Assembly (NCBI GenBank): GCA_947630755.1 | Contig: CANRIU010000017.1 | Coordinates: 1 to 34,879, forward strand | Direction of reading: 5' to 3' | DNA length: 34,879 bases | From: an uncultured Oscillospiraceae bacterium | GTDB lineage: Bacteria > Bacillota > Clostridia > Oscillospirales > Oscillospiraceae | In this document: positions 19,148-23,467 of the stretch, piece after piece | Position numbering within the stretch: the first letter of the stretch is position 1 | Layout: every line of letters begins with the position of its first letter | Program-made: the position numbers and the translations under genes | Notes under the pieces: generated by a model | What the model was told of the DNA's origin: nothing | Database searches by the model: none | Seen by the model: the letters and a program-made list of their open reading frames with translations, nothing else

Positions 19148-20977
19148 TCACAGGTTCTTCGCGCCCTTGAGGGCCTTCATTCTGAGGGCGTGGTCCAGAA
19201 TGGACTTGCGAATCCGCAGGCTCTGGGGCGTGACCTCCAGAAGCTCGTCGTCGGCAAGAAACTCAAGGCACTGCTCAAGGCTCATGGTCCGGGGCGGCAC
19301 CAGTCTCAGCGCCTCGTCGGAGCCGGCGGCACGCATATTGGTCAGCTGCTTTTTCTTGCACACGTTTACCGTGATGTCCTCGTCCTTTGGCGTCTCGCCG
19401 ACGACCATGCCGCCGTAGACCGCGACGCCCGGGGAGACGAACATGACACCCCGGTCCTGCACGCCGAATATGCCGTAGGCCACGGCCTCTCCCGTCTCGC
19501 TTGCCACCAGAGACCCGGTGCCCCGGCGGGAGATGTCGCCCTTGTACTTTTCGTACTTCTCAAAGACGGAGCTCATGATGCCCTCGCCCTTTGTGTCGGT
19601 GAGAAATTCGTTCCTGTAGCCGAAAAGGCCCCGGGAGGGGACGAAGAAGGTCATTTTCATTCTGGACCCCACGGGTGTCATCTCCACAAACTCGCCCCGG
19701 CGGGAGGAGAGCTTCTCAATGATGGACCCCACGGAGTCCTCGGGCACGTCCACGACGACCCGCTCGATGGGCTCGCACCTGGCGCCGTCAATTTCCCGCA
19801 TGAGCACACGCGGGGGCGACACGGCAAACTCGTAGCCCTCCCGCCGCATGGTCTCGATGAGGATACTGAGGTGCATCTCGCCCCGGCCCGCCACGTTGAA
19901 GCTGTGGTCGGAGCCCTCCACCTCGGATACCCGCAATGACACGTCCTTCATGGTCTCCCGGAAGAGACGGTCCCGCAGCTGCCGGGAGGTGACGTACTTG
20001 CCCTCGCGCCCGGCGAATGGGGAGTCGTTGACGGAGAATGTCATCTCCATGGTGGGGGCGGAGATTTTCACGAAGGGCAGGGCCTCGGGCGCCTCCGGCG
20101 CGCATATCGTGTCGCCGATGGATATGTCCGGTATGCCGCTAAGGGCGATGATGCTGCCGGAGCTTGACTCCGTCACGGGCGTGCGGGCAAGCCCCGCGAA
20201 CTCATACAGGCTCACGGCCCTGGCCTTTTTCGGCGCGGCGTCGGGGTCGTGGTAGTTGACAACACTGAGCTCCTGATTCTGCCGTATCACGCCCCGCTCG
20301 ATGCGCCCGATGGCGATGCGCCCGACGTAGTCGTTGTAGTCTAAGGAGCTCACAAGCATCTGGAGGGGCTCGCCGTCGTGGTCCTCCGGGGCGGGAATGT
20401 ACTCCACGATGGTGTCAAAGAGGGGCTTTAAGTCCGTGCCCGGCACGTCGGCGGAGTAGCTTGCGGTGCCCTGACGGCCGGAGCAGAAGAGCATGGGGGA
20501 GTCTATCTGTTCGTCAGTGCAGCCAAGCTCAATGAGCAGCTCCAGTATCTCGTCCACCACCTCCAGCATCCGCTGGTCGGGGCGGTCTATCTTGTTAAGG
20601 ACGACTATCACCCGGTGGCCCAGCTCCAGCGCCTTGGAGAGCACGAACCGCGTCTGAGGCATGGGCCCCTCGGCGGCGTCCACCAGAAGGATGACGCCGT
20701 TGACCATCTTCAAAATGCGCTCCACCTCGCCGCCGAAGTCGGCGTGGCCCGGGGTGTCCACGATATTTATCTTGATGTCGCCGTACTGTACGGCGGTGTT
20801 CTTGGCGAGAATGGTGATGCCCCGCTCCCGCTCCAGGTCATTGGAGTCCATGACCCGCTCCTGCACGGCCTGATTCTCCCGGAACACGCCGGACTGCTTG
20901 AGCATCTCGTCGACCAGAGTGGTCTTGCCGTGGTCAACGTGGGCGATAATGGCTACGTTTCGTATCTTTTTTTCCAA
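19148..20977 (-). CDS. typA: Ribosome-associated GTPase BipA/TypA
   Basis: The 609-residue product is a translational GTPase related to EF-G that binds the ribosome and helps 50S assembly and stress adaptation. The G domain shows [11 protein letters not shown] (from about residue 10), DTPGHADF (G3) and NKIDRPD (G4). The C-terminal half includes the family-specific [18 protein letters not shown] and [20 protein letters not shown] segments. The start is uncertain between TTG at 20977 (protein [10 protein letters not shown]..., AGGGAG about 10 nt upstream, preferred) and GTG at 20986, which is too close to that site. The long frame further upstream is repeat DNA and not part of the gene. It has its own promoter at 21017-21046. 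Confidence 0.96.
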
Positions 20978-21016
20978 AGGTAACACTTCTCCCTGAACGT
21001 AAAATTCAACCGAAGT

Positions 21017-21046
21017 ATTATATAACAGGAGAGCGGGGGATTTCAA
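21017..21046 (-). promoter_or_regulatory. bipA promoter
   Basis: On the minus strand TTGAAA (21041-21046), 18 nt, TATAAT (21017-21022), about 40 nt before the TTG start. It lies between the palindrome array and the gene, so the array is upstream of and outside the bipA transcript. Confidence 0.82.
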
Positions 21047-21099
21047 GCGTTCAAACGCAAAAGCGGCGGGGGGATTTAATATTTTTTTCATCAAAAATG

Positions 21100-22460
21100 A
21101 CGATGGGGGGCGCAGCCCCCGCAGCAGGTCCCCGCCGTCAGGCGGGGATATTCCGCCCGAAGGGCGGAGGGAGAGGTCCCCGAAGGGGACCGGGGGAGCC
21201 GCCGACAGGCGGGGTAAGTCCACCGAAGGTGGACGGGAGAATTGCCTTGAAAAGGCGGGGGAATTCCGCCCGAAGGGCGGAGTGCTTTTGTCCACCTTGG
21301 GAGGTGGACGGGGCATGTTCGTTTTCTCTCTTTTGACCCGTCAAAAGAGAGAAAAGAACCAAAAGAGAGAAAAACGGCCCGGGGAGGGATTTCGATTTTG
21401 CCGTCAAGCGGCACTTCCGCCGCTGCGCGGCTCCCTTTGCCCTCCCCGGGACCCCTCCTTTTAAAAACGACACAGAGAGGGGCCTGCGGGCCCCCCTCTG
21501 GACTTCTCCCGGGGATGCGAGTCGGAGTGGAGAGCGTTTTATCGATAATTAAGCAGGTGAAGCAGAGGGCAAAAACCGGGCTTTCATCGTTGTCACGATA
21601 GTCCAGCTCCCGCGCCCGCATGTCGAGACCTGCCCGAGCCTCCATCGCCGCGCGGTCCTTAATCGAATTGTCTCAGCGTCTACTACCGCTGCCGCTCACT
21701 GGTCTACTGACATACGTCCAGCCTTCACCCCACCCCGCGCGGGGTGGAGTAGAACTACAACTTCCGTCCACAACCGGAGGAGCGGCAGCGGGGATGGTGC
21801 TGAAGTCAATTCGACAAAGCACCGCGCGGAATTCGGGGCGAAAAGAGCTGCCGTCCACCTCCGCGGAAGCCGAACCGCCGTAAAAGGTGAAAACCCCGGT
21901 TCGCGAAAACCACCGCACCAGATGCGCCGAAGAAAAGTGAGAAAAGAGAAAAACCGAAGCCGTGCACCCCGGGGGGAGTCCAGAGGGGGGCCCGCAGGCC
22001 CCTCTCTGTGTCGTTTTTAAAAGGGGATTGTCAAGGGGGAAAATCGAAATCCCCCTTGACCCGGTTTTCTCTCTTTTGGTTCTTTTCTCTCTTTTGACGG
22101 GTCAAAAGAGAGAAAACGAACATTTCCCGTCCACCTCCCAAGGTGGACATATCGCCCCGCCCTCCGGGCGTAAACCCCCGTCTTTTCAGACGGCCCGTCC
22201 ACCTCCGGTGGACTTACCCCGCCTGACGGCGGCTTCCCCGGTCCCCTTTGGGGACCTCACGCCCCGCCCTCCGGGCGGAAAAACCCGTCTTTTCAGACGG
22301 TCCCCGTCCGCCTCCGGCGAACTCACCCCCGCCTAACGGCGGTTTCCCCGGTCCCCTTCGGGGACCTCTCCCTCCGCCTGACGGCGGACTTTCCCGTCCA
22401 CCTCCGGTGGACTTACCCCGCCTGACGGCGGGCCCCCTCCGCCCTCCGGGCGGTGTCCCT
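21100..22460. repeat. Symmetrical 1.36 kb palindrome-array element with long inverted-repeat arms
   Basis: Most of the 1.5 kb between bipA and ldhA is one inverted structure. Each arm is a string of short perfect palindromes, for example GTCCACCGAAGGTGGAC, TCCGCCCGAAGGGCGGA, GGTCCCCGAAGGGGACC and CCGCCGTCAGGCGG. Read outward-in, both arms give the same module order (GGTCCCC unit, CCGCCG unit, GTCCACC unit, GAAAAG unit, CGCCC unit, then GTCCACCTTGGGAGGTGGAC at 21290-21309 and 22129-22148). Inside are a perfect 59 nt inverted match (21315-21373 with 22065-22123), itself holding a 34 nt palindrome, and a perfect 48 nt match (21457-21504 with 21977-22024). The right arm has extra copies of the modules. 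No transposase is present. Confidence 0.88.
21515..21966. other. Unique core of the inverted-repeat element
   Basis: About 450 nt between the arms that is neither palindromic nor clearly coding. On the minus strand one frame from about 21918 is open to an in-frame TGA at the residues SGSGSRR, then continues in the same frame as DNSIKDRAAMEARAGLDMRA and RELDYRDNDESPVFALCFTC into the left arm. It has no ribosome site. It may be a decayed gene, a structured RNA, or neither. Confidence 0.4.
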
Positions 22461-23467
22461 TACGCCCTCTGGGCTTCAACTCCCCCTCGGAGTTCATTCT
22501 CCACCGCCTCCCCGGCGATAAACCTCCTCAGGTTTTCAACCGTCACCTCTGCGATGGCCCTCAGTGCCTCATCAGTAAGAAACGCCTGGTGCCCCGTCAC
22601 CAGCACATTCGGCTGGGACAGAAGAAGATTAAGAGTATCGTCCCTCATGATTTTCCCGCTCACGTCCTCGTAGAAGACGTCCGCCTCCTCCTCGTAGACA
22701 TCGAGCCCCGCGGCGCCGACCTTGCCGGACTTTACGTTGTCGAGAAGTGCCTCGGAGTCTATGAGCGCCCCACGGGAGGTGTTGATGATCACCACCCCGG
22801 GGCGCATGGAGTGGAAGGCCTGGCGGCTCAGCATGTGGTAGGTGGAGGGCGTCAGGGGGCAGTGGAGGGATATGACGTGGGAGAGCTTGATGAGCTCGTC
22901 AAGCCTGACGTACTCAAGCCCCGCGCCCCACCGGGGCTCTAAATCGTAGGCCAGCACCCTCATGCCCAGCCCCCGGCAGATGGAGGCAAACTTCATCCCC
23001 ACCTTGCCGGTGCCCACGACCCCCACGGTCTTATCCGCCAAGGTCATGCCCACAAGGCCATCCAGGCTGAAATTGCGCTCTCTTGTGCGGGTGAAGGCGC
23101 GGTGGGTCCTCCGGGCCAGGGTCAAAAGCAGCGCCAGCGCGTGCTCCGCCACGCTCTCCGGGGAGTAGGCCGGGACGCGAAAGACATGTATCCCCGCCCT
23201 TTGTGCGGCATTGAGGTCCACGTTATTAAACCCCGCGCACCGCAGCGCCACCGCCCGGACGCCGCACTCCGAGAGCACACGCAGCGTCTCGGCCCCCAGA
23301 TCGTCGTTGACAAAGGCGCACACCCCCACGCAGTCCCGGGCCAGCGCCGCCGTCTCCGGCGTCAGCCTACACTCAAGGTACCTAAGCTCCAGCCCCGCGT
23401 CTTTTGAAAAAATGTCGAACCACCTGCGGTCGTAGGGCTTTACGTCGTAAAATGCGATCCTCTCCAT
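22460..23467 (-). CDS. ldhA: NAD-dependent D-lactate dehydrogenase (fermentative)
   Basis: The 335-residue enzyme reduces pyruvate to D-lactate, regenerating NAD+. It closely resembles E. coli LdhA: ALRCAGFNNVDLNAA (substrate side), the NAD-binding GTGKVG at 152-157, and the catalytic residues R232 (NTSRGALID), E261 (VYEEE) and H293 (TGHQAFLT), each offset by 3 from E. coli. The ATG at 23467 has GGAGG 6 nt upstream. The normal family C-terminus ends near ENEL; here an extra tail RGGVEAQRA is encoded by palindromic units of the neighbouring array (GAACTCC/GGAGTT and GCCC/GGGC), so the array has replaced or extended the end of the gene. Confidence 0.95.
   Translation of the reverse strand: MERIAFYDVKPYDRRWFDIFSKDAGLELRYLECRLTPETAALARDCVGVCAFVNDDLGAETLRVLSECGVRAVALRCAGFNNVDLNAAQRAGIHVFRVPAYSPESVAEHALALLLTLARRTHRAFTRTRERNFSLDGLVGMTLADKTVGVVGTGKVGMKFASICRGLGMRVLAYDLEPRWGAGLEYVRLDELIKLSHVISLHCPLTPSTYHMLSRQAFHSMRPGVVIINTSRGALIDSEALLDNVKSGKVGAAGLDVYEEEADVFYEDVSGKIMRDDTLNLLLSQPNVLVTGHQAFLTDEALRAIAEVTVENLRRFIAGEAVENELRGGVEAQRA

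Follow-up and report, generated by a model that had tools for sequence, protein, structure and literature searches.

Among the described repeats closest to the locus reported here are the intrastrand triplex motifs of bacteria (PIT elements, BoxC and TM_ECO; Holder et al. 2015, PMC4666352), which, according to the accessible part of that paper, have so far been catalogued through sequence searches, with no support for a stable triplex inside the cell in the case best studied. Miniature inverted-repeat transposable elements (MITEs) and similar small bacterial repeats are characterized, in the accessible part of a review (PMC2229807), as shorter than 200 bp, mostly TA-ended, A+T-rich and associated with target duplications. 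Here, we describe a 1.4-kb inverted repeat without recognisable gene (~1.36 kb and 62.5% G+C in the copy at hand) that lies between bipA and a 2-hydroxyacid dehydrogenase gene in a stretch of 34,879 nucleotides, hereafter the window, from an uncultured Oscillospiraceae bacterium (contig CANRIU010000017.1). We consider it likely that this repeat is one copy of a MITE-like, non-coding family of an Oscillospiraceae genus, in which a complete copy consists of a reversed arm unit (reverse-U), a core and a forward unit (U), whose arms act in folded form, and which is moved in trans. An earlier, sequence-only reading of the window knew of no described family built in this way, and no family with the arm-core-mirrored-arm plan or with its strings was found in the open-licence literature.

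Both perfect inverted matches claimed in that reading are present, one of 59 nt (21315-21373 with 22065-22123) and one of 48 nt (21457-21504 with 21977-22024); in 100 mononucleotide-shuffled versions of the region, such matches reached at most 14 nt. Imperfect arm matches cover 89 nt (97% complementarity), 93 nt (89%) and 58 nt (97%). The mirrored palindrome modules were likewise recovered, a search for stems of at least four pairs returning nine on the left and 15 on the right, the inner ones being mirror images; the plan needs one correction, as the left P2 hairpin carries an extra ~48-nt hairpin that the right P2 is without. Extra rounds of modules do occur in the right arm (repeats at 110 nt for module D6, 107 nt for D7, and 109 and 90 nt for D1), at a spacing of mostly 107-110 nt, and these rounds, together with tandem end modules in other copies, support the proposed growth by module duplication. 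The core, described as unique, is so within the window, but other copies in the same genome hold pieces of it at ~83-95% identity. The long arm-to-arm stem that had been foreseen for a transcript is the minimum-energy RNA fold of 21105-22460 (289 of its 503 pairs bridge over 400 nt), with which local hairpins compete. All six Rfam 15 matches in window positions 20900-22700 fell under the gathering score; a known Rfam RNA was accordingly dropped as the identity of the element, there being no match over threshold.

Further copies, for which a search had been recommended, were found in the window's own genome and across the genus. DNA similarity detects the element in 24 of the 34 genomes sampled from the genus, counting the own genome, and in none of 26 outside it. 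The own genome, an assembly of 2.19 Mb in 98 contigs, contains 112 matching pieces, many of which lie at contig ends; modules H and K differ little or not at all among about 20 of its loci. A covariance model, labelled R1 and built on 40 aligned copies of the linker, P2 and S2 parts of the arm (see below), was positive in 26 of the 34 genus genomes and gave 26 matches in the own genome. Copies of U per genus genome range from 0 to 107, the richest genomes holding 107, 98, 82, 74, 54 and 45 and eight holding none. The model also matched 27 of 147 genomes (16 of 85 genera; own included) at the level of the order, where some weak matches may be due to chance, and 2 of 299 at the level of the phylum, the own genome and another with a weak match (6.9e-4). 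Plasmid and phage collections yielded no relatives by DNA similarity, and viral contigs no match for one element pattern. Given copies in 26 of the 34 genomes, the possibility of a one-off local expansion is rejected.

The arm unit U, of ~200 nt, comprises a P1 hairpin, the linker TCGTTTTTAAAAGG, a P2 hairpin, an H-type pseudoknot and outer hairpins. In 76 copies found by pattern in other genomes of the genus (61 with distinct pseudoknots), P2 has the loop AAAATCGAAAT on a variable stem, and is followed in order by strand S1a, a pyrimidine tract termed R1, strand S2a, a loop, strand S2b and then the outer hairpins. The S2 loop pairs with S1a across copies in changing letters (GTTG/CAAC, CTCG/CGAG, TCGC/GCGA). 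Among the 40 aligned sequences, 93.3% of cells were paired against 81.0% after shuffling, and both-side changes occupied 192 cells against 58.3. The pseudoknot helix S1 was paired in 83.5% of cells, with both-side changes in all five of its pairs, and the S2 helix in 94.0%, with both-side changes in 9 of 18 pairs; the crossing helices of an H-type pseudoknot thus covary in these 40 sequences, as does P2 in the family.

Loop 1 of an H-type pseudoknot passes across the major groove of stem 2, and it is in this loop, between S1 and S2, that the 12-15 nt R1 tract sits. To act as a third strand, pyrimidines have to lie parallel to the purine strand, and R1 in that role must therefore mirror S2a rather than copy it. 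Fits were compared in 56 of the 61 distinct copies, five with an S2 finder score below 13 being left out. Taken as a mirror, R1 gave a mean of 11.64 Hoogsteen matches out of 12 with 39 copies perfect; taken as a direct repeat, 10.21 out of 12 with 15 perfect, the mirror being the better fit in 35 of the 36 copies in which the two differ. The 25 tract variants, 19 of which differ within the first 12 letters, behaved alike when each was represented by one copy: 17 were perfect as mirror versus 4 as direct repeat, and the mirror was better in 20 of the 21 variants with differing fits. R1 and S2 of the same copy shared 291 matches, versus 248 for swapped partners (standard deviation 5; maximum of 1000 swaps, 266), a signal that may to its detriment partly reflect block exchange between copies, as whole hairpins differ as blocks at two orthologous sites. 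The window's own tract is mirror-symmetric and therefore cannot alone discriminate mirror from direct repeat. As far as the letters go, R1 mirrors S2 within the genus, where copies have the order of a class IV triplex (compared with known motifs further below) and the makings of parallel T.A and C.G triples.

Alternatively, the likeness of R1 and S2 might be a chance product of short T/C-rich tracts, or R1 might be a duplicated piece of S2a, with no triplex selected. The copies in which the direct repeat is perfect and the symmetry of the window tract would suit such an origin, as would the copies from beyond the genus, to which the direct repeat fits equally well or better. The discriminating tracts of the genus nevertheless follow the mirror in copies and variants alike, and match is lost when partners are swapped. 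Ordinary DNA copying, moreover, yields direct or inverted repeats, and mirror repeats are not among its usual products. We hold this alternative to be improbable, and regard the conserved part of each arm as more than a string of palindromes, namely a structure that covaries and contains a pseudoknot together with a mirrored third strand; the case for a putative triple helix is strong inside the genus only.

Arm units are arranged in a fixed manner. Among adjacent units within 1.5 kb, 38 of 39 pairs were head-to-head (reverse-U then U) at spacings of 74-1155 nt, the lone other pair involving a match cut by a contig end. The count covers 95 of 96 loci (L091, with a single partial match, was left out) and, from 207 rows, leaves aside the short matches of the S2 hairpin to itself on the opposite strand wherever a stronger match overlaps them; its weakest partners score 26-31 bits. 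This makes arm, core and mirrored arm the plan of the family, as in the window. A core motif, NATTGTCTCNGCGTCTA (up to four changes allowed), occurs in 16 of 39 cores against a mean of 2.35 and a maximum of 7 in 20 shuffles, although it weakens this count that the motif was picked after reading some of the cores later counted. Cores and end modules are tandemly repeated in some copies. In two genomes, G005 and G020, the elements terminate in inverted sequences resembling GCTCCTGAGCCGCGGGGCT, with 19 and 16 matches respectively and none for the backward control, outside which the flanking DNA is abrupt and mostly different; sharp terminal inverted repeats of this kind were found in these two genomes only. 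The dispersal in many copies, the head-to-head arrangement and, for two genomes, the defined ends are established, and they support the non-autonomous mobile-type repeat that the sequence-only reading had put forward as one of its options.

The cores gave no support to a coding function, the longest frame being shorter than 100 amino acids in 33 of 38. As with MITEs, copies are thus numerous and dispersed, occurring in 26 of the 34 genomes, and encode no protein of the element itself, one GNAT gene being possible cargo: at locus L144 (386-1541), a head-to-head pair brackets a GNAT acetyltransferase gene (PF00583, 3e-18). Another pair (L089, 1169-1897) brackets a membrane-like 163-aa frame whose first 90 residues are without a Pfam match over the cut-off. 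Both frames are possibly captured cargo. A likeness of the core motif to integron attC sites was dropped on reading.

With respect to mobility, ten bipA-dehydrogenase gaps, the window's included, could be compared: U is present in four and absent from six, and four of the latter are only 177-252 nt long. In relatives (L010, L013, L014, L024) the gap contains palindromic repeats of other kinds as well as small open frames similar to one another, one encoding a ...YNYGF... protein and one a helix-turn-helix-like protein, so that it looks like an insertion hot spot. Target duplications were sought but not seen, which is why we class the element as MITE-like and not as a MITE. The comparison of empty with occupied sites that had been suggested as a check did not succeed, a flank search revealing no clean empty site among four sites of G005 and G020. 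At two shared sites of these genomes the hairpin class differs as a block, indicating that exchange between copies, or joint change, does happen. The number of Y1 transposases correlates with the U copy number (rho 0.45, p 0.008), as does genome size (0.47). An IS200/RAYT-type Y1 mover is a possibility, but Y1 was not found in two copy-rich genomes, G005 (45 copies) and G006 (22 copies). A group II intron or retron was set aside, reverse transcriptase not being found in several copy-rich genomes: RVT_1 had no match in the draft assemblies G000, G006, G020, G025 and G028, each with at least 22 copies.

A number of observations weigh against a structured family moved in trans. As regards the structure, further pair types (42 against 38.6) and pairs with both-side change (19 against 15.5) were barely above their values in shuffles, which moreover ignore relatedness; sliding the partners by 1-3 columns, which keeps relatedness, brought pairing down to 53-66%, but the structure was set from one aligned row, so that the true register is favoured over the slid versions. 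Outside the genus, where tracts are mostly shorter and complementary S1-like strings reach up to 7 nt, 14 of 30 copies are perfect as mirror and 17 as direct repeat, the mirror being better in 4 of the 14 that differ. As regards movement, no target-site duplication was seen by eye in the four elements with both ends (L152, L153, L293, L300), and sites are occupied in both G005 and G020 (L152/L252, L121/L280 and, by position, L143; L120 is ambiguous). Neither Y1 transposase nor reverse transcriptase was found in every U-rich genome, and no transposase was recognised in the cores, where other long frames are unscanned and one was scanned only in part. Even so, it probably acts in the manner of a small mobile element that carries no genes itself.

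A complete element has one forward U on each of its strands, so that the transcript of either strand, or either single strand of DNA, could fold it. In a crude survey of the 76 copies, the nearest gene on the P4 side converges on U in 38 and runs away from it in 17, and genes on both sides are convergent in 19 and divergent in 2. Such a bias would be expected of a cis-acting RNA element at gene 3' ends, whose folded arms terminate, protect or process transcripts and which spreads by recombination and gene conversion only, a reading that would also accommodate the fold of the right U, far better than that of 200 shuffles (z -6.1), and the mismatches of P1, where G.T outnumbers A.C by 32 to 0, as an RNA strand allows. 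The context counts, on the other hand, lack a called gene on the P4 side in 21 of the 76 copies and on the other side in 18, and 28 of the 32 G.T mismatches of P1 fall on one position in closely alike stems, thus representing few events. P2 has five G.T and one A.C, and S2 shows no excess of G.T (14 versus 14 A.C on the alignment; 3 versus 4 copy by copy), the latter counting against arms folded as RNA in our preferred reading as well; over P1, P2 and S2 the mismatches are thus mixed as an RNA signature. A range of 0-107 copies within one genus would moreover be less surprising for a selfish repeat than for a signal that is required, and we consider a purely cis-acting RNA element unlikely.

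It could also be argued that the locus is a cluster of palindromes like those of REP/BIME or PIT/TM, which acts as DNA, through replication stalling or local instability, and does not itself transpose. To go by the accessible part of PMC4666352, intrastrand triplex motifs abound in bacteria as repeats linked with variable loci, and the tandem cores and outer modules, the differences in hairpin class at the same site and the many own-genome contigs that end inside U would all fit. A fixed composite plan, a core motif and sharp ends amount to more than a cluster, and instability alone would not keep the pseudoknot helix and the mirror strand covarying, which renders this explanation very improbable.

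In the reading that we favour, that of a mobile family with folded arms, each U would be a single-strand folding unit made of P1, a fixed linker, P2 and the H-type pseudoknot, in which the loop of the S2 stem would pair with the upstream strand S1 and the 12-15 nt pyrimidine tract would lie along S2 as a parallel third strand. Outer hairpins would close the element, with a sharp inverted terminal sequence in two genomes, and these outer palindromes may grow through duplication of end modules. We infer that the arms act as folded single strands, either of RNA or of DNA unwound in replication or transposition, and that an enzyme not encoded by the element moves it in trans. More tentatively, the family may represent a new class of mobile element whose ends are putative triple-helix pseudoknots; a mobilising machinery or a protective factor might then read the folded arm strand, and covariation of three strands could keep the fold as the sequence drifts. 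The third strand changes together with the stem over 25 variants while staying a mirror in nearly all that can discriminate, a pattern not easily made by copying errors, and the family thereby offers a natural bacterial candidate for a triple helix that is testable with two- and three-strand mutants. Its head-to-head plan and the wide range of copy numbers within a single genus further single it out as a possible case of a so far undescribed mode of movement. In practical terms, contigs of the own assembly break inside the element.

Table 1. Features of the inverted repeat and its two flanking genes, in window coordinates.
Feature	Position	Strand	Basis and remarks
bipA	19148-21001	-	PF21018 BipA_C 7.3e-47, PF00009 1.4e-56; 5' end towards left arm
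Left outer array, nine short G+C-rich palindromes	21106-21309	.	Stem search and repeat families
Left arm unit U	21312-21510	-	Covariance model R1 match 21312-21470, 84.4 bits, E 3.8e-19; P1 by stem search
Left S2 stem-loop of pseudoknot	21317-21359	-	Stem search
Left R1 tract of pyrimidines, proposed as third strand, and beginning of S1a	21360-21376	-	Sequence, model alignment
Left P2 hairpin, extra hairpin in loop	21377-21456	-	48 nt versus 6 model positions; stem search
Left invariant linker TCGTTTTTAAAAGG	21457-21470	-	Stem search
Left P1 hairpin	21473-21501	-	Stem search
Core between arms, with genus core motif	21515-21966	+	RNA fold z -4.16
Right P1 hairpin	21980-22008	+	Stem search
Right arm unit U, model-covered part	22011-22126	+	Covariance model R1, 117.7 bits, E 2.6e-27 (self-included score, the stretch being one of the 40 rows behind the model)
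Right P2 hairpin, conserved loop AAAATCGAAAT	22030-22060	+	Stem search
S1a (CCCG), partner S2 loop CGGG 22098-22101	22060-22063	+	Sequence; family covariation of helix
R1 pyrimidine tract, proposed Hoogsteen third strand, pseudoknot loop 1	22064-22078	+	Family-wide mirror test
Right S2 stem-loop	22079-22121	+	Repeats, covariation, stem search
Right outer array, 15 short palindromes, repeated rounds	22129-22453	.	Stem search and repeat families
2-hydroxyacid dehydrogenase gene (called ldhA in the sequence-only reading)	22460-23467	-	PF02826 2.6e-48; 3' end adjoins right arm

The left arm is traversed by open frames (window 21097-21316), and the mechanically called bipA frame extends to 21316; the gene would be mis-started if annotated thus. 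The ~48-nt hairpin insert in the left P2 loop (window 21393-21440) recurs in other copies of the own genome (C12, C22, C63, C73, C75), and a similar insert occupies the same place in another species (L124), suggesting that hairpins may insert into hairpin loops. Other copies display particularities of their own: the core or part of it is tandemly repeated in L264, L112 and L113, up to about three copies, and in L181 (~985-1060 and 1330-1390) the core contains a nested repeat of another kind, around GGGACGGTTCTTT and its inverse. A TTCGTCA-type flank is alike at several borders (L153, L167, L295, L300, and the bipA flank of the window and its relatives); such a flank may reflect a preferred target or belong to the outermost part of the element.

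The accessible parts of the published accounts place the family among known systems as follows. MITEs and similar small repeats (PMC2229807) are, like the U elements, non-coding and dispersed, have inverted ends and are moved in trans if at all; the four two-ended U elements differ from them in measuring 360-832 nt at 51-57% G+C and in showing no target duplication. REP/BIME elements (PMC3733652) resemble the outer arrays in being strings of short intergenic palindromes, whereas the palindromes of the U elements are accessory to a larger conserved unit, the comparison being one in which GTAG/CGTC tags had no part. H-type pseudoknots in which loop 1 forms a triple helix, telomerase RNA being an example and that of Kluyveromyces lactis one with a pyrimidine-motif helix (PMC4689454), share with U their topology and the kind of triples proposed; U differs in its tract of 12-15 nt and in its host, a bacterial repeat, and no relationship is implied. 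The triple-helix ENE of transposon RNA (PMC12501189) likewise sets a triple helix on a mobile element, but this plant ENE pairs with a poly(A) tail, while the proposed third strand of U is internal, no poly(A) being involved. The intrastrand triplex motifs (PMC4666352) are multi-copy repeats in which, as in U, one strand can fold back twice into a potential triple helix. The order of third strand, pyrimidine strand and purine strand in U is that of their class IV, which makes up 4% of the list; the repeat studied in that paper is of class II, with a G/C-rich purine motif, and belongs to proteobacteria. What sets U apart is a third strand that covaries with the stem, a pseudoknot helix that closes it and a head-to-head composite, the words pseudoknot and covari- being absent from the accessible text of that paper. 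Intrastrand triplex repeats are thus known as a kind, and we file the present element as MITE-like and putatively triplex-bearing.
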